Below are positions 4,868-58,731 of a stretch of 64,000 nt of DNA, one piece after another. The notes beneath the pieces are model-generated. The model saw only the letters and a program-made list of their open reading frames with translations, searched no databases and was not told the DNA's origin. The stretch comes from Ornithinimicrobium sufpigmenti. GTDB taxonomy: Bacteria > Actinomycetota > Actinomycetes > Actinomycetales > Dermatophilaceae. The first letter of the stretch is position 1. Each line of letters begins with the position of its first letter. A program made the position numbers and the translations under genes. The stretch covers positions 2,046,001-2,110,000 of the forward strand of contig NZ_CP036403.1 in the NCBI RefSeq assembly GCF_004322775.1, read 5' to 3'.

Positions 4868-4886
4868 GGCAGGTCACCGCACAAGC

Positions 4887-4970
4887 GCGCGCCCGGTCGG
4901 TGCAGAACGTGCGCCCGGTCGGTGCAGAACGTGCGCCCGGTCGGTGCAGAACGTGTTCCCGGTCGGGGGA
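4887..4970. repeat. 22-bp period tandem array, 4 units
   Basis: Four copies of a 22-base unit, GTGCGCCCGGTCGGTGCAGA plus AC; the GGTCGG core lies at 4895, 4917, 4939 and 4961, exactly 22 bases apart. The first three units are almost identical; the fourth degenerates to GTGTTCCCGGTCGG. It begins about 20 bases after the SRPBCC stop codon. The rest of the 292-base gap before the 2-hydroxyacid dehydrogenase holds a possible -10 (TATGCT, 5016-5021) and no gene I can support. The same core and period recur near 17.3 and 52.3 kb. Confidence 0.9.
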
Positions 4971-10922: not shown

Positions 10923-10926
10923 CCCC

Positions 10927-10972
10927 CCGACCGGCGACACGTTCTGCCCCCGACCGGCGACACGGTTCGCCG
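10927..10972. repeat. two-unit repeat of the CGACCGG family
   Basis: Two copies of CCGACCGGCGACACG stand 23 bases apart (GACCGG at 10929 and 10952), starting a few bases after the livF stop. The core resembles that of the 22-bp arrays elsewhere in the window, in the CGACCG...CAC orientation. The period here is 23, not 22, because of an extra C. No gene lies between 10923 and 11021. Confidence 0.7.
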
Positions 10973-16324: not shown

Positions 16325-17271
16325 AGATCCTGGTCACCGGCGGGTCCGGCTTCCTCGGCTCCTCCGTCGTTCCCGGTCTGGTGCGGGACGGGCACGAGGT
16401 CGTCAGCACCGATGTGCGCGAGCCGGGCGAGCCGGGCGCGGCCACCATCGGAGCGCTGCATGTGCCGATGGACGTGCGCGAACCGCATACGGTCGACCAG
16501 GTCGTCGGCGAGTACCGCCCGGAGGTGGTGGTCCACCTGGCCAGCATCGTCACGCCCGGCAAGGGCTCGGACCGAGCGCTGGAGCGGGCCGTCGACGTGG
16601 ACGGCACGCGGCACGTGCTCGACGCGTGCCGGGCGCACGGGGTGCGGCGGATCGTGGTGTCCTCCAGCGGCGCGGCCTACGGCTACCACGCCGACAACCC
16701 CGTGCCGCTGACCGAGTGCGACCCGCTGCGGGGCAACGTCGAGTTCGCCTACGCCGACCACAAACGGCAGGTGGAGGAGATGCTGGCCGCCGAGCGGCTG
16801 CGCACGCCGGAGCTGGAGCAGGTGGTGCTGCGCATCGGCACGATCCTGGGGGAGCGGGTCGACAACCAGATCACCCGGCTGTGGGCCGGACGGTTCATCC
16901 TCCGGCTGGCGGGGGCGGAGTCGCCGTTCGTGCTGGTGTGGGACAAGGACGTGGTCCGGGTCGTGGTGGCAGCGGTGACCTCGACGGTGACCGGGGTGTT
17001 CAACGTCGCGGGGGCAGGAACGGTGACGGTGCCCGAGATCGCGCGGGCACTCGGGAAGCGGACGCTCGTCGTGCCCGAGCCCGTCCTGCGCGCTGCCCTG
17101 GCCGTGGGAAAGCGTGCCCGGCTGACCGCCTACAGGCCGGAGCAGACCGTCTTCCTCGCCCACCGGCCTGTGCTCGATGCCTCCCGCCTGCGTGAGCTGG
17201 GGGTCGAGGTGCTGCCGACGCGCGAGGTGCTGCGCCGGTATGCCGCGGCCCAGGCCGGGCGCACCCCCTGA
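16321..17271 (+). CDS. NAD-dependent epimerase/dehydratase (extended SDR)
   Basis: A 316-residue extended SDR: TGGSGFLG at residues 7-14, VVVHLASIV, Ser in VVSSSGAAYG and the catalytic pair in YADHK. Sugar-nucleotide epimerases and atypical 3-beta-HSD-like or hydroxyacid reductases share this fold. The operon context (monooxygenase, symporter, SDR) argues against a cell-wall sugar role. GTG 16321 overlaps the transporter stop by 4 bases. The last codons (AQAGRTP) are already written in sequence resembling the 22-bp repeat that follows. Confidence 0.82.
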   Translation: MKILVTGGSGFLGSSVVPGLVRDGHEVVSTDVREPGEPGAATIGALHVPMDVREPHTVDQVVGEYRPEVVVHLASIVTPGKGSDRALERAVDVDGTRHVLDACRAHGVRRIVVSSSGAAYGYHADNPVPLTECDPLRGNVEFAYADHKRQVEEMLAAERLRTPELEQVVLRIGTILGERVDNQITRLWAGRFILRLAGAESPFVLVWDKDVVRVVVAAVTSTVTGVFNVAGAGTVTVPEIARALGKRTLVVPEPVLRAALAVGKRARLTAYRPEQTVFLAHRPVLDASRLRELGVEVLPTREVLRRYAAAQAGRTP

Positions 17272-17330
17272 CCGACCGGGCGCACGGTTGTCACCGACCG
17301 GGCGCACCGTTGTCACCGACCGGGCGCACG
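17255..17330. repeat. 22-bp period tandem array, 3-4 units
   Basis: CGACCGGGCGCAC starts at 17273, 17295 and 17317, exactly 22 bases apart, with the intervening text GGTTGTCAC. A fourth, partial unit (CCGGGCGCACC at 17255) lies within the end of the epimerase gene. Read on the minus strand the unit is GTGCGCCCGGTCGGTGACAA, nearly the same as the array at 4.9 kb but in the opposite orientation. The rest of the gap to 17467 holds a -10-like box and a palindrome. Confidence 0.88.
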
Positions 17331-17436
17331 CTTCGCGCCGGACTCGGGACAGTCCTCGGCGCCTCGCTGCCCAGGAACCCTCGAGCTGCTGCATACCCCG
17401 TGCAAAGAAGGGCGCCGAGCGCTACGCTGGGATAAC

Positions 17437-46829: not shown

Positions 46830-46892
46830 TACGCTTCCGGTCATCCCGGTGGTGACACGCTTCCGGTCATCCTGGTGGTGACCGGAAGCGTG
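46830..46892. repeat. 26-bp direct repeat ending in a 14-bp hairpin
   Basis: ACGCTTCCGGTCATC occurs at 46831 and again at 46857, 26 bases apart. The second copy pairs with what follows: CACGCTTCCGGTCA (46856-46869) and TGACCGGAAGCGTG (46879-46892) are exact complements around 9 bases, then TTGTCTG. It looks like a terminator for the small acidic gene. The remainder of 46893-47173 contains a shorter hairpin (CCACCCC/GGGGTGG near 47033-47050), a candidate promoter and no gene I can support. Confidence 0.75.

Positions 46893-50965: not shown

Positions 50966-50969
<4 letters not shown>
48801..50969 (+). CDS. alpha-galactosidase, glycoside hydrolase family 36
   Basis: A 722-residue (from GTG 48801) GH36 enzyme, of normal family length. 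An N-terminal beta-sandwich precedes the catalytic barrel: LNNWEATYFDH, VLDDGWFGGRRDD, LWVEPEMV, YLKWDHNR with nucleophile Asp457, ESCAGGGGRVD, and WASDCIDPLERQQIQRG with acid/base Asp523. It releases terminal alpha-galactose from melibiose- or raffinose-type sugars. No signal peptide is visible, so it acts inside the cell. The start is uncertain (GTG 48768 is 11 codons earlier). Its stop overlaps galK by 4 bases, so released galactose is phosphorylated by the next enzyme. Confidence 0.93.
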
Positions 50970-52264
<1,295 letters not shown>

Positions 52265-52290
52265 CCGGGGGGCAGCTCCTGCATCATCCC

Positions 52291-52590
52291 GACAGAACAC
52301 GTGAGAAGACCCCACTGGACACGCGAAAAGGCCCCACCGAGCACGCGAAAAGACCCGACCGGACACGCGGGACGACCTGACCCGGCGCCCCGAAGGGCTC
52401 ACAGGACACGTGAAAAGGCTCGACCGAACACGGCCGGCGGCCGCACGTGTTCGGTCGAGCCCTATGGCGTGTTCGGTCGAGCCCTATGGCGTGTTCGGTC
52501 GAGCGCTTTGCCGTGTTCGGTCGCGCCTTGTGACGTGTTCTGTCGAGCACTTTGCCGGGTTCTGTGGGGGCCTATGACGTGTTCTGTTGG
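52291..52590. repeat. inverted pair of 22-bp period arrays (7 units facing 7 units)
   Basis: Left half: ACACG-type cores at 52297, 52319, 52341, 52363, 52385 (degenerate), 52406 and 52428. Right half: CGTGT-type cores at 52446, 52468, 52490, 52512, 52534, 52556 and 52578, all 22 apart. Right units read GTGTTCGGTCGAG plus a variable segment such as CCCTATGGC; left units are their reverse complement with AAAAGGCCC-like variable parts. The innermost units form a perfect 16-bp stem: GGCTCGACCGAACACG and CGTGTTCGGTCGAGCC around 13 GC-rich bases. The last right unit extends into the ackA 3' end. The gap has no gene. Confidence 0.92.
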
Positions 52591-53786
52591 TCTGCGACCA
52601 CGGCAGCGGCCTGGCGGGCGATCTCCAGCTCCTCGTCGGTCGGCACCACCCAGACCTGGACGCGGCTGTCGGCGGTGGTGATCCGGCCCTCGGCACCGCC
52701 CACGGTGGCGTCGTTCGCGGCCGGGTCCAGCTCGGCACCGAGGAAGGTCAGGCGGTCCACGACGGCGGCGCGGAGCGGGGCGACGTTCTCCCCGATGCCG
52801 GCGGTGAACACTAGGGCGTCGAGCCCGCCGAGGACGGCGGTGAAGCCGCCGACGTACCGCAGCAGCCGGTGCACGACGACCTCGAAGGCCAGCTCGGCGT
52901 CAGGGTCGCCCTCGTCGCGGCGGGCCATCACCTCGCGCATGTCCGCAGAACCGGTCAGGCCGAGCAGACCCGACTCCTTCGACAGCGCCCGGTCGTAGTC
53001 CTCCATCGACATGTTCGCCACGCGGGCCAGGTGCCCGGCCAGGCCGGGGTCGAGGTCGCCGCCACGGGTGCCCATGACCAGACCCTCCAGCGGGGTCAGC
53101 CCCATCGAGGTGTCGACCGACCGGCCGCCCTCGACGGCGGTGGCGCTCGCGCCGTTGCCGAGGTGCAGCACCACCGTGCGCAGCTCCTCGACGGGACGGC
53201 CGAGCAGCTCGGCCACGCGCCGGGAGACGTAGGCGTGCGAGGTGCCGTGGAAGCCGTAGCGGCGCACCCGGTGCTGTGCACGCCATACCTTGGGTACGGC
53301 GTAGGTGGCGGCCGCCTCCGGCATGGTCTGGTGGAAGGCGGTGTCGAAGACGGCGACCTGCGGCACGTCGGGGAAGGCCTCCTGCGCCGCGGTGATGCCG
53401 TCCAGGTTGCCGGGGTTGTGCAGCGGCGCGAGCGGCACCAGACGCTTGATGGTGGCCAGCACCGCGGGCGTGACCTCGACGGGGTCGGCGAAGTCGGCGC
53501 CGCCGTGGACGACGCGGTGGCCGACCGCGACCAGGTCGACCTGCGCGAGGTCGGGACCGTGCTCGGCGAAGGCACCGGTCAGCAGGTGCATGGCGGCCTC
53601 GTGGTCGGGCACCGGGAGCTCGCGGTCGTGCCGGACCCCGTCGACCGTATGGTGCAGGGCACCCGTGGATAACCCGATGCGCTCGATCAGGCCCTTGGCG
53701 TGCGACGCCCCGGTCTCGGGGTCGAGCAGCTGGTACTTCACCGACGAGGAGCCGGCGTTGATGACGAGGACGGCGCGCACGTTCAC
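52572..53786 (-). CDS. ackA: acetate kinase
   Basis: A 404-residue acetate kinase. VLVINAGSSSVKYQL at the N-terminus, GHRVVHGGADFADPV, VAVFDTAFHQTMPE, YGFHGTSHAYVSRR, LHLGNGASATAVEGG, DTSMGLTPLEGLVMGTRGGD and FTAGIGEN are all canonical. It interconverts acetyl phosphate and acetate with ATP. ATG 53786 overlaps the pta stop by 4 bases, so the order pta-ackA is one transcript on the minus strand. The last codons (QQNTS) fall inside the right end of the repeat array, so the array has invaded or grown from the gene's end. Confidence 0.96.
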   Translation of the reverse strand: MNVRAVLVINAGSSSVKYQLLDPETGASHAKGLIERIGLSTGALHHTVDGVRHDRELPVPDHEAAMHLLTGAFAEHGPDLAQVDLVAVGHRVVHGGADFADPVEVTPAVLATIKRLVPLAPLHNPGNLDGITAAQEAFPDVPQVAVFDTAFHQTMPEAAATYAVPKVWRAQHRVRRYGFHGTSHAYVSRRVAELLGRPVEELRTVVLHLGNGASATAVEGGRSVDTSMGLTPLEGLVMGTRGGDLDPGLAGHLARVANMSMEDYDRALSKESGLLGLTGSADMREVMARRDEGDPDAELAFEVVVHRLLRYVGGFTAVLGGLDALVFTAGIGENVAPLRAAVVDRLTFLGAELDPAANDATVGGAEGRITTADSRVQVWVVPTDEELEIARQAAAVVADQQNTS

Positions 53787-57003: not shown

Positions 57004-57077
57004 GGACGTGTAGCTCAGTTGGTTAGAGCGTTCGCTTCACACGCGAGAGGTCAGGGGTTCGAGTCCCTTCACGTCCA
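57004..57077 (+). tRNA. tRNA-Val (anticodon CAC)
   Basis: A complete 74-base cloverleaf. The acceptor stem is GGACGTG/CACGTCC, the D arm contains TAGCTCAGTTGGTTAGAGC, and the anticodon loop TTCACAC reads CAC between TTCGC and GCGAG. The T arm is CAGGGGTTCGAGTCCCTT (one imperfect pair) and the discriminator is A at 57077. CCA is not encoded. The integrated element starts directly after its 3' end, and the recombinase gene on the other strand uses 41 bases of this tRNA for its last codons and stop, so the tRNA is the likely integration target. Confidence 0.95.
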
Positions 57078-58731
57078 CCCAAGTGTTCTTACGGGAACAC
57101 GCGACATGCGAAGAGTCGTTGTGTTCCCGTAAGGGTTCCTCTCCGTCGTCGTCCGTCTTCGTCTCGCGGATGATGGTGGCGAACGGCTCGGCCAGTCGCG
57201 GACGTAGTTGCTCGTCATCGGTGATGTCGAGGCGGGTGTAGAACGCCTGGTTCGCCAAGCGCCGGTCAGCATCTCCTGAACGGGCGTAGGCGCGGTGGGC
57301 GTCGGTGAGCAGCCGTAGCGAGTCGTGCAGGAACGCCCGCCCGCCGGTGTGGTGCTCGTCGTGCTCGGCGAGTTTCTGGTTCACGTCGGCCAGGCCCGCC
57401 CGGATGCGGTCTTGGTGCCGCTTGAGGGTCGGGAGGTCGATGGCGTCGGCGAAGTGCGCGGCCAGCAGTTTGTCGCTCTCGGCTTCGAGCTTGGCTCGGT
57501 TCGCCATGAGGTCGGCGATCTCTTGGTCGCGGCCTGCCATGCGCTTGTCGAACGCCGCATCCACCCGCTTGGCGAGGTCGCGGTAGGTGGCATCGCTGAT
57601 CGTGATCGAGGCGTAGGAATCCGCGACGAGACGTTCAGCGACCGCGACCGGCACCGCCCGCCTCGTGCAGCCGGTTTTCTTGGCGGCGCGGCCGGAGCAG
57701 ACGAAGTAGGCGTACGTGGTGCCCCTCGGGTTGGTGGCGAAGTCGAGCAGCATCCGCGACCCGCAGGTGCCGCAGTGCAGCAGGCCTTTCAGGTGATGCG
57801 CGTGCTGGACGTGCCGGGTCTGCTTCGCCGTCCGCGCCCGCAAGAGCGACTGCACCTGATCGAACAGGGCCGGTTCCACGATGGATTCGTGCGCACCGGG
57901 ATACAGAGCACCCTTGTACCGGATCACGCCCGCGTAGTACGGGTTCGTCAGCAGCTTGTAGAGCGTGTTCTTCCCCAACGGCTTCGACGGGCGCTTCGGT
58001 GTCGGCACCGTGACCAGTCCGCGTGCGGTGAGGTCGCGCAGCAGCCCGGTCACGGAGGTCTCGCCCTCGGCGTACTGCTCGAACGCCCAGGTGATGAGCG
58101 GGGCACGTGCCGGATCGACCTCGACTGTGCGAACCTCGCGGCCGTTGTCGTCCGTCTTGCGGACGTTGAGGTAGCCGATGGGTGCACGCATCGGGGTGCC
58201 GCCCTGAGCGATCTTCTGCGACAAGCCCTTGGACACTTCCGTGGCGAGGTTCCGGGAGTAGAACTCCGCAATGGAAGACATGATGCCGTGCACCAGCATC
58301 CCCGAGGGCGTCTGGTCGATGGACTCGGTCGCCGACACGAGCGTGACACCGGCGCTGATGAGGGCCTCGTGAATCTTCACATCGTCGGCGCGGTTACGAG
58401 CGAGCCGGTCGAGCTTATGCACGATGCAGAACGTGACGCGCGTCGCGGCGATGAACGCCAACATCTCCTGCAACCCATCCCGATCCGCAGACCTGGCCGA
58501 CTCGCCCGCGTCGACGAACTCGCGCACGATGCGTGCGCCGAGTTCGTCGGCCTTGCGCTGATTGGCCTCGCGCTGGGCGGGGATCGAGAACCCCTCGTCG
58601 GTGCCGCCGCGCTCGGCCTGCTCCCTGGTGGAGACGCGCAGGTAGGACACGGCCAGCAGCACCGGCTTATCGCCCGCGTGATTGTCGGTGACGCCTACCG
58701 GGGCGAGGGTGGGAGCCGTGGTGGTGCTCAT
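57037..58731 (-). CDS. large serine recombinase (integrase) of the mobile element
   Basis: A 564-residue large serine recombinase. The resolvase domain has SYLRVSTREQ with nucleophile Ser34, and IVHKLDRLARNRADDV. The recombinase domain follows (about 190-300: APIGYLNVRKTDDNGREVRT; NTLYKLLTNPYYAGVIRYKG). A zinc ribbon (LHCGTCGSRM, CSGRAAKKTGC) and a coiled coil (about 420-490) complete it. ATG 58731 has AAGGAG 6 bases upstream and overlaps the upstream small gene by 4 bases. The last 13 residues, VDVKGLEPLTSRV, and the stop are encoded by the complement of tRNA-Val, so the C-terminus depends on the attachment site. Confidence 0.9.
   Translation of the reverse strand: MSTTTAPTLAPVGVTDNHAGDKPVLLAVSYLRVSTREQAERGGTDEGFSIPAQREANQRKADELGARIVREFVDAGESARSADRDGLQEMLAFIAATRVTFCIVHKLDRLARNRADDVKIHEALISAGVTLVSATESIDQTPSGMLVHGIMSSIAEFYSRNLATEVSKGLSQKIAQGGTPMRAPIGYLNVRKTDDNGREVRTVEVDPARAPLITWAFEQYAEGETSVTGLLRDLTARGLVTVPTPKRPSKPLGKNTLYKLLTNPYYAGVIRYKGALYPGAHESIVEPALFDQVQSLLRARTAKQTRHVQHAHHLKGLLHCGTCGSRMLLDFATNPRGTTYAYFVCSGRAAKKTGCTRRAVPVAVAERLVADSYASITISDATYRDLAKRVDAAFDKRMAGRDQEIADLMANRAKLEAESDKLLAAHFADAIDLPTLKRHQDRIRAGLADVNQKLAEHDEHHTGGRAFLHDSLRLLTDAHRAYARSGDADRRLANQAFYTRLDITDDEQLRPRLAEPFATIIRETKTDDDGEEPLREHNDSSHVACSRKNTWVDVKGLEPLTSRV
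57088..57133. repeat. 13-bp inverted repeat beside the attachment site
   Basis: CTTACGGGAACAC (57088-57100) and GTGTTCCCGTAAG (57121-57133) are exact complements separated by 20 bases, starting 10 bases after the tRNA. The left arm is also part of a shorter dyad, GTGTTC-TTACGG-GAACAC (57083-57100). These are plausible recombinase-binding arms of attL, although they also encode the recombinase's C-terminal residues. Confidence 0.6.

Follow-up and report, generated by a model that had tools for sequence, protein, structure and literature searches.

The MIRU unit measures roughly 50–100 nt and is oriented with transcription, overlapping stop codons; REP and BIME elements are dispersed extragenic repeats that often lie at 3′ ends. 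Dispersed repeats in bacteria are often classed, from their likeness to known elements, as terminators, as binding sites or simply as junk. MIRU are mostly intergenic, and it has been hypothesised that they are transcribed as part of polycistronic operons (PMC3635867). The TAACTGA repeats of Beggiatoaceae have a 7-nt unit, lie mostly just upstream of start codons and have a proposed role at the RNA level (PMC4679880), and overlapping 3′ UTRs are described for convergent genes (PMC7821165).

In general description, the arrays reported here resemble the MIRU and MIRU-VNTR of Mycobacterium tuberculosis (PMC3635867), being an actinobacterial minisatellite with many loci and a variable copy number. 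Tandem copies, many intergenic loci and a copy number that varies (here between two species) are all present, and fixed orientation is found as a preference that is not absolute (27 vs 6 and 20 vs 0, below). They differ from MIRU in a unit of 22 or 32 nt, in facing pairs at convergent genes and in having several related families per genus. Unlike REP/BIME with their palindromic unit, one-sided arrays here folded no better than shuffles, and a REP/RAYT system was rejected, with Y1_Tnp (PF01797) found in 0 of 31 genus genomes. Like the Beggiatoaceae repeats (PMC4679880), these are short direct repeats in sets, intergenic and confined to some lineages; unlike them, the units are 22/32 nt long and lie downstream of stop codons. 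The location at convergent genes is shared with bidirectional intrinsic terminators and overlapping 3′ UTRs (PMC7821165), whereas 66 of 106 arrays here are one-sided and fold like shuffles. A literature search, including this group of Actinobacteria, found no paper on these repeats, and a phage or plasmid origin gave no match in two collections.

The galK–ackA junction

Within the window (the whole 64-kb stretch of DNA analysed), the gap between galK (galactokinase, 50966–52264, + strand; Pfam GalKase/GHMP) and ackA (acetate kinase, 52572–53786, − strand; Pfam Acetate_kinase) carries 7 + 7 repeat units of 22 nt in two arms of opposite orientation. Pfam thereby confirmed the convergent neighbours named in an earlier note, and the coordinates confirmed its description of facing sets of seven units with one 21-base join and one degenerate left unit. 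The left arm, at the galK 3′ end (52288–52432, sense on the + strand, also placed by the PWM map), consists of seven tandem units starting at 52288, 52310, 52332, 52354, 52375, 52397 and 52419, of which the fifth, at 52375, is degenerate with 8/16 mismatches. The right arm, at the ackA 3′ end (52446–52593, sense on the − strand), also has seven tandem units, starting at 52446, 52468, 52490, 52512, 52534, 52556 and 52578. Spacing is 22 throughout, the single exception being the 21 join in the left arm. The innermost inverted pair (52417–52461) forms a perfect 16-bp stem (52417–52432 with 52446–52461) around a 13-base centre at approximately 52439, as had been noticed before.

The earlier claim that the units occupy the gap held for the array, which does lie there, and failed for the outermost right unit (52578–52593), which reaches into the coding end of ackA. 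On the other side, the galK stop (52264) and the first left unit have 23 bases between them. The final codons of ackA read CAG AAC ACG TCA TAG (protein end ...VVADQQNTS), and this TAG falls in the spacer following a repeat unit. In the closest relative the same ackA DNA reads ...VVEA and then a stop; together with the unit inside ackA, this indicates that the repeat now provides the end of the gene.

With up to 3 mismatches allowed, the 16-mer core had 11 matches in the window; shuffles averaged 2.35, and 0 of 100 reached 11. The spacers, 10–11 nt long and semi-conserved, agree with the previous exclusion of a CRISPR. An Rfam scan of the window at the gathering score returned no match except a tRNA.

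Polar arrays at gene 3′ ends

The family 1 unit is YGACMGRACACG, whose reading defines the sense strand, plus a variable half, 22 nt in all, and it recurs across the organism's own genome (G000). Matches to the 16-mer with up to 2 mismatches numbered 57 vs 4 for the reversed pattern, and exact tandem pairs at 22 nt numbered 129 vs 5. Finding no other arrays in the genome was to have argued against a general functional element; others were found, which favours a general one. The mirror image at galK–ackA is two separate arrays of a dispersed polar repeat, one per gene 3′ end, and arises because both gene ends at a convergent junction can carry an array; the galK–ackA repeats are no special bidirectional element.

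We mapped arrays in 40 stretches of G000 (5–10 kb around matches, drawn from among the pattern matches listed; those at 2341135 and 2520503, for example, were left out), 20 of the closest congener G019 and 20 of the congener G004. An array was defined as two or more units, one-unit arrays being dropped from array counts, and genes were taken from our own codon-usage caller, which missed some, such as an aroQ-like ORF in L048. The sampled stretches contained at least 57 arrays in G000, 23 in G019 and 26 in G004 (106 in total). Steps between units were 22 nt in 170/181 cases in G000 and 32 nt in 66/79 cases in G004. Since the PWM seeds had been chosen by a fixed regular expression, core conservation was measured in another, unit-based comparison: in the 127 internal units from G000, conservation stood at 0.94–0.99 for most core columns and at 0.83–0.86 for a few, in addition to M and R positions. 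Arrays open and close with the core (YGACMGRACACG), the spacer is variable and reads CYTTTS on the antisense strand, and identical adjacent units occur.

Orientation followed transcription. In all 20 facing pairs the sense arrays pointed toward each other, with 0 reversed; unpaired arrays in codirectional gaps ran along the upstream gene's direction in 27 cases vs 6 opposed (p = 0.0003); and 15 of 19 single arrays in convergent gaps lay closer to the sense-upstream gene (15 vs 4). Among 76 co-oriented arrays outside genes, 56 began within 20 nt of a stop codon and 15 overlapped the stop by exactly 7 nt, the unit's YGA being the TGA stop itself. Within the G000 and G019 stretches, which had been chosen for arrays, arrays occupied 22/43 convergent, 28/128 codirectional and 4/67 divergent gaps. 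Of all 106 mapped arrays, 6 lay in divergent gaps, 9 were called inside genes and 66 had no facing partner within 250 nt. Such polarity relative to stop codons suggests either action in the transcript or an insertion process aimed at TGA.

In an array-blind survey, Tandem Repeats Finder was applied to a total of 400 kb taken at fixed positions from five congeners. Arrays were present in 8/34 convergent, 10/109 codirectional and 2/43 divergent gaps (convergent vs divergent, p = 0.02), and 8 of the 10 codirectional arrays were nearer a 3′ end; the survey was uneven, since 12 of its 20 array gaps came from G005, 4 from G007 and 4 from the other three congeners. In the control, 320 kb with one genome from each of four other genera, the corresponding figures were 3/31, 8/94 and 3/40, with no 3′ bias; codirectional arrays there were nearer a 3′ end in 3/8 cases (p = 1). 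The 80 kb of G005 (L211–L214) contained 12 intergenic gaps with tandem arrays of many differing periods, or 15 per 100 kb, and 7 of 8 codirectional arrays in that genome were nearer a 3′ end.

Some arrays lie elsewhere. In-frame arrays were found in the coding sequences of an MFS transporter, of TilS, of a DEAD helicase and of an ABC ATPase (L033, L036, L049 and L054; Pfam), the first two also being present in G019; the family 1 sense strand is only 4% T and therefore holds few stop codons. The array of L057 is close to where the start of a solute-binding protein gene was called, so it may be outside the translated part. One G000 array is situated between ilvN and ilvC and another after an aminotransferase gene (by eye, hisC) and before a GNAT gene, each with the next start 45–47 nt away. 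We also considered a replication-polarity signal and rejected it (arrays 30 vs 27, genes 206 vs 151).

Unit families among congeners

We compared the ackA 3′ flank by eye at 28 loci, our own and 27 congeners. In G019 there are three degenerate units of 22 nt; G004, G016, G021, G028 and G029 have facing arrays of a 32-nt unit; G012, G013 and G020 have relatives of that unit; and several congeners, such as G001, G003, G008, G014, G018 and G030, have no array discernible by eye. Related unit families thus occupy the same place in congeners. The 32-nt pattern gave 88–308 matches in each of G004, G013, G016, G020, G021, G028 and G029, 28 in G003, 11 in G012, 7 in G008 and a single match in each of three further genomes, and all reversed controls gave zero. 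A stricter version retained nine genus genomes, with one stray match among the family's 155 other genomes.

Family 1 itself also occurs in G019, and many arrays are kept at the same gene ends between these two species, which are approximately 88% identical: 14 of the 20 G019 array stretches matched G000 array stretches, with mapped arrays on both sides in 13, the exception being L171 of G019, where no array of at least two units was mapped. Unit numbers differed between orthologous loci. Over the 11 pairs tried, identity between G000 and G019 was 340/424 (80%) in the core vs 300/440 in the spacer, and 525/684 (77%) in 80 nt of partly coding downstream flank, so that the core was just slightly higher than the flank.

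A second 22-nt family (family 2, sense YGACCGRGCGCACG) matched the own genome 37 times vs 0 in the control. In the window it forms arrays at 4883–4968 (− strand, 4 units of 22 nt, polarity opposite to the adjoining genes), 10925–10967 (+ strand, 2 units at spacing 23, beginning 2 nt past a stop codon) and 17270–17333 (+ strand, 3 units of 22 nt, beginning at the upstream gene's TGA stop). Family 2 arrays often begin at stop codons, the unit's YGA being the stop in several, and their codirectional polarity (7 vs 3) was not significant alone. Spacings were mixed (22, 32, 36, 42, 45, 53 and 54). Two stretches, L233 (3104–3187) and L239 (2831–2994), carry the family 2 core at 32- and 36-nt periods in a genome that mostly uses 22. 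By eye, family 1, family 2 and the 32-nt family look related through an ACCGRRCRC-like core.

These spacings bear on the suggestion that the units form a DNA-binding array, in which a candidate protein would sit on the cores at helical-turn spacing, the array being a polar roadblock or a site that organises the chromosome. Core columns conserved mostly at 0.94–0.99 beside a variable spacer, and periods of 22 and 32 that differ by about one helical turn, would suit such a protein, but family 2 is also found at 36, 42, 45, 53 and 54, the arrays of other congeners have many periods, a replication-strand bias is absent (30 vs 27) and array polarity tracks transcription. We regard this explanation as highly improbable, and strict helical phasing is contradicted by the other spacings; as to the two-turn spacing of the earlier note, related units occur at periods of 22, 32 and 36.

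Turnover also bears on the main rival of the reading preferred below, a MIRU-type minisatellite, neutral or selfish, which would be seeded at TGA stops, expanded by slippage and tolerated where harmless, its polarity reflecting the stop-codon target. The YGA that serves as stop codon in 15/76 arrays and in several family 2 arrays, the in-frame arrays within MFS, TilS, helicase and ABC genes, the differing copy number of orthologues and the lineage-specific families all accord with such an origin, and promoter intolerance alone could explain the depletion from divergent gaps. Against it, most polar arrays leave the stop codon untouched, core conservation between species exceeds that of the spacer (but hardly that of the flank downstream), the 3′ bias is missing from the tandem repeats of the four other genera sampled, and the candidate helpers, RAYT in the 31 genus genomes and the IS21 protein istB in the own genome, were not found. 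We consider a purely neutral repeat possible, though rather on the unlikely side.

The core resembles GTGTCCGGT repeats among distant pattern matches, which we take to resemble IS21 ends. The istB (PF01695) search gave 3 matches in the own genome, two below the cut-off, and the sole one above it was DnaA (Bac_DnaA 248 bits); IS21 ends were rejected. The distant matches comprised 63 stretches: 37 from one Lentisphaeria MAG, two from Serinicoccus and 24 others, which by eye are unrelated tandem repeats caught by the pattern. Named matches (L085, L102) suggest that the genus belongs to the Serinicoccus group. Many contigs of Lentisphaeria bacterium STF1_46 (37 loci between L072 and L133) contain an 11-nt tandem unit, CGTGTYCCGTC.

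Folding and a possible role in the transcript tail

The earlier note had offered a multi-hairpin bidirectional terminator, in which the facing arms would fold into nested stems with T-rich spacers serving as U tracts. The whole 336-nt galK–ackA element folded much more stably than shuffles (z −7.8 and −7.4), its inner stem is a perfect 16 bp and the antisense strand of the family 1 spacer reads CYTTTS, all of which would be in keeping with an intrinsic terminator. A strong fold is to be expected wherever two arrays of the same unit stand in opposite orientation. At 13 loci, own arms folded at −72.9 kcal/mol vs −72.0 kcal/mol for swapped arms (p = 0.35; galK–ackA ranked 2/13), and pairing between arms looks incidental. 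Furthermore, 66/106 arrays have no facing partner, one-sided arrays of at least 3 units folded like shuffles (mean z −0.68, n = 29; 0.25, n = 10; 0.06, n = 19), and the 32-nt consensus has no T tract. A GC-rich stem followed by a U tract is thus not found in the family at large, with the stem present at galK–ackA. As a general function the multi-hairpin terminator is not supported, in view of these unpaired arrays, shuffle-like folds and unmatched arms, as well as of the arrays between ilvN and ilvC and within genes, and we judge an intrinsic terminator very unlikely. The galK–ackA locus may yet fold, and folding there would be a by-product.

Another strong stem was present in 3/22 convergent gaps with arrays vs 8/21 without (G000 and G019, p = 0.09), and arrays may substitute for terminators, although this difference is not firm; an earlier count that suggested a stronger exclusion between arrays and hairpins had been made without the shuffle control, and with the control it is a trend. 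Gene ends of G004 without arrays showed no hairpin excess. An array acting as a site just 5′ of a hairpin terminator was also rejected, a strong hairpin following within 80 nt after 5/19 single convergent arrays vs 8/42 array-free ends.

The remaining suggestion of the earlier note, a replication-slippage element growing outward from gene ends, gave the best fit, in view of the starts at stop codons, the copy-number differences between orthologues and the identical neighbouring units; arrays would grow through slippage or when cores recombine unequally. Our preferred reading, held tentatively and at somewhat less than even confidence, is a dispersed minisatellite anchored at gene ends that probably acts in the 3′ tail of the transcript. 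The attachment of the arrays to gene ends we regard as shown; the role in the tail, our best single guess, we infer from polarity, position and turnover. The effect of the arrays would lie in the sense transcript, where they would make up a G-poor, weakly structured untranslated tail right after the stop codon. In all three families the sense strand contains little G and has, per base, less structure than ordinary 3′ flanks; this low structure is largely a matter of composition, with z against shuffles near 0.

The most concrete form of a role in the tail would be a Rho-loading tract, with which every gene end would need its own sense copy, the sequence would be free to drift and added copies would lengthen the tract. 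Rho is present in the genome. An excess of C over G, as expected of a rut site, speaks for Rho in families 1 and 2, although in family 1 the excess is slight (p = 0.04 and 0.007); in family 3 it is not significant, and the 3′-end arrays of five congeners gave no support to a general C > G rule (9/16). YC dinucleotides in family 1 are rarer than background (0.13 vs 0.19). Moreover, the arrays 45–47 nt before the next start, at ilvC and at the gene after the hisC-like one, are hard to reconcile with strong termination. We consider Rho unlikely as the specific mechanism.

More broadly, and doubtfully, the genus might possess a replaceable gene-end code, in which polar tandem cores right after stop codons would be recognised in the transcript by conserved machinery, either Rho or an RNA-binding protein of their own, while whole unit families would have been swapped at the same gene ends with position, polarity and array form kept. 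If they are functional, the arrays would give this group of Actinobacteria a 3′-end signal set by array form and not by the exact sequence. Dozens of arrays in at least two unit families, and orthologous loci that have or lack them, allow function and targeting at stop codons to be tested against each other.

Two other features of the window were observed. At 46831–46882, after a + strand gene, lies a 26-nt tandem repeat in 2 copies, followed by an inverted copy of the repeat start (ACGCTTCCGGTCA...TGACCGGAAGCGT); this is another gene-end repeat, of different sequence. At 57004–58731, a large serine recombinase with Resolvase, Recombinase and Zn_ribbon domains comes after a tRNA gene, which looks like an integrated element at a tRNA.
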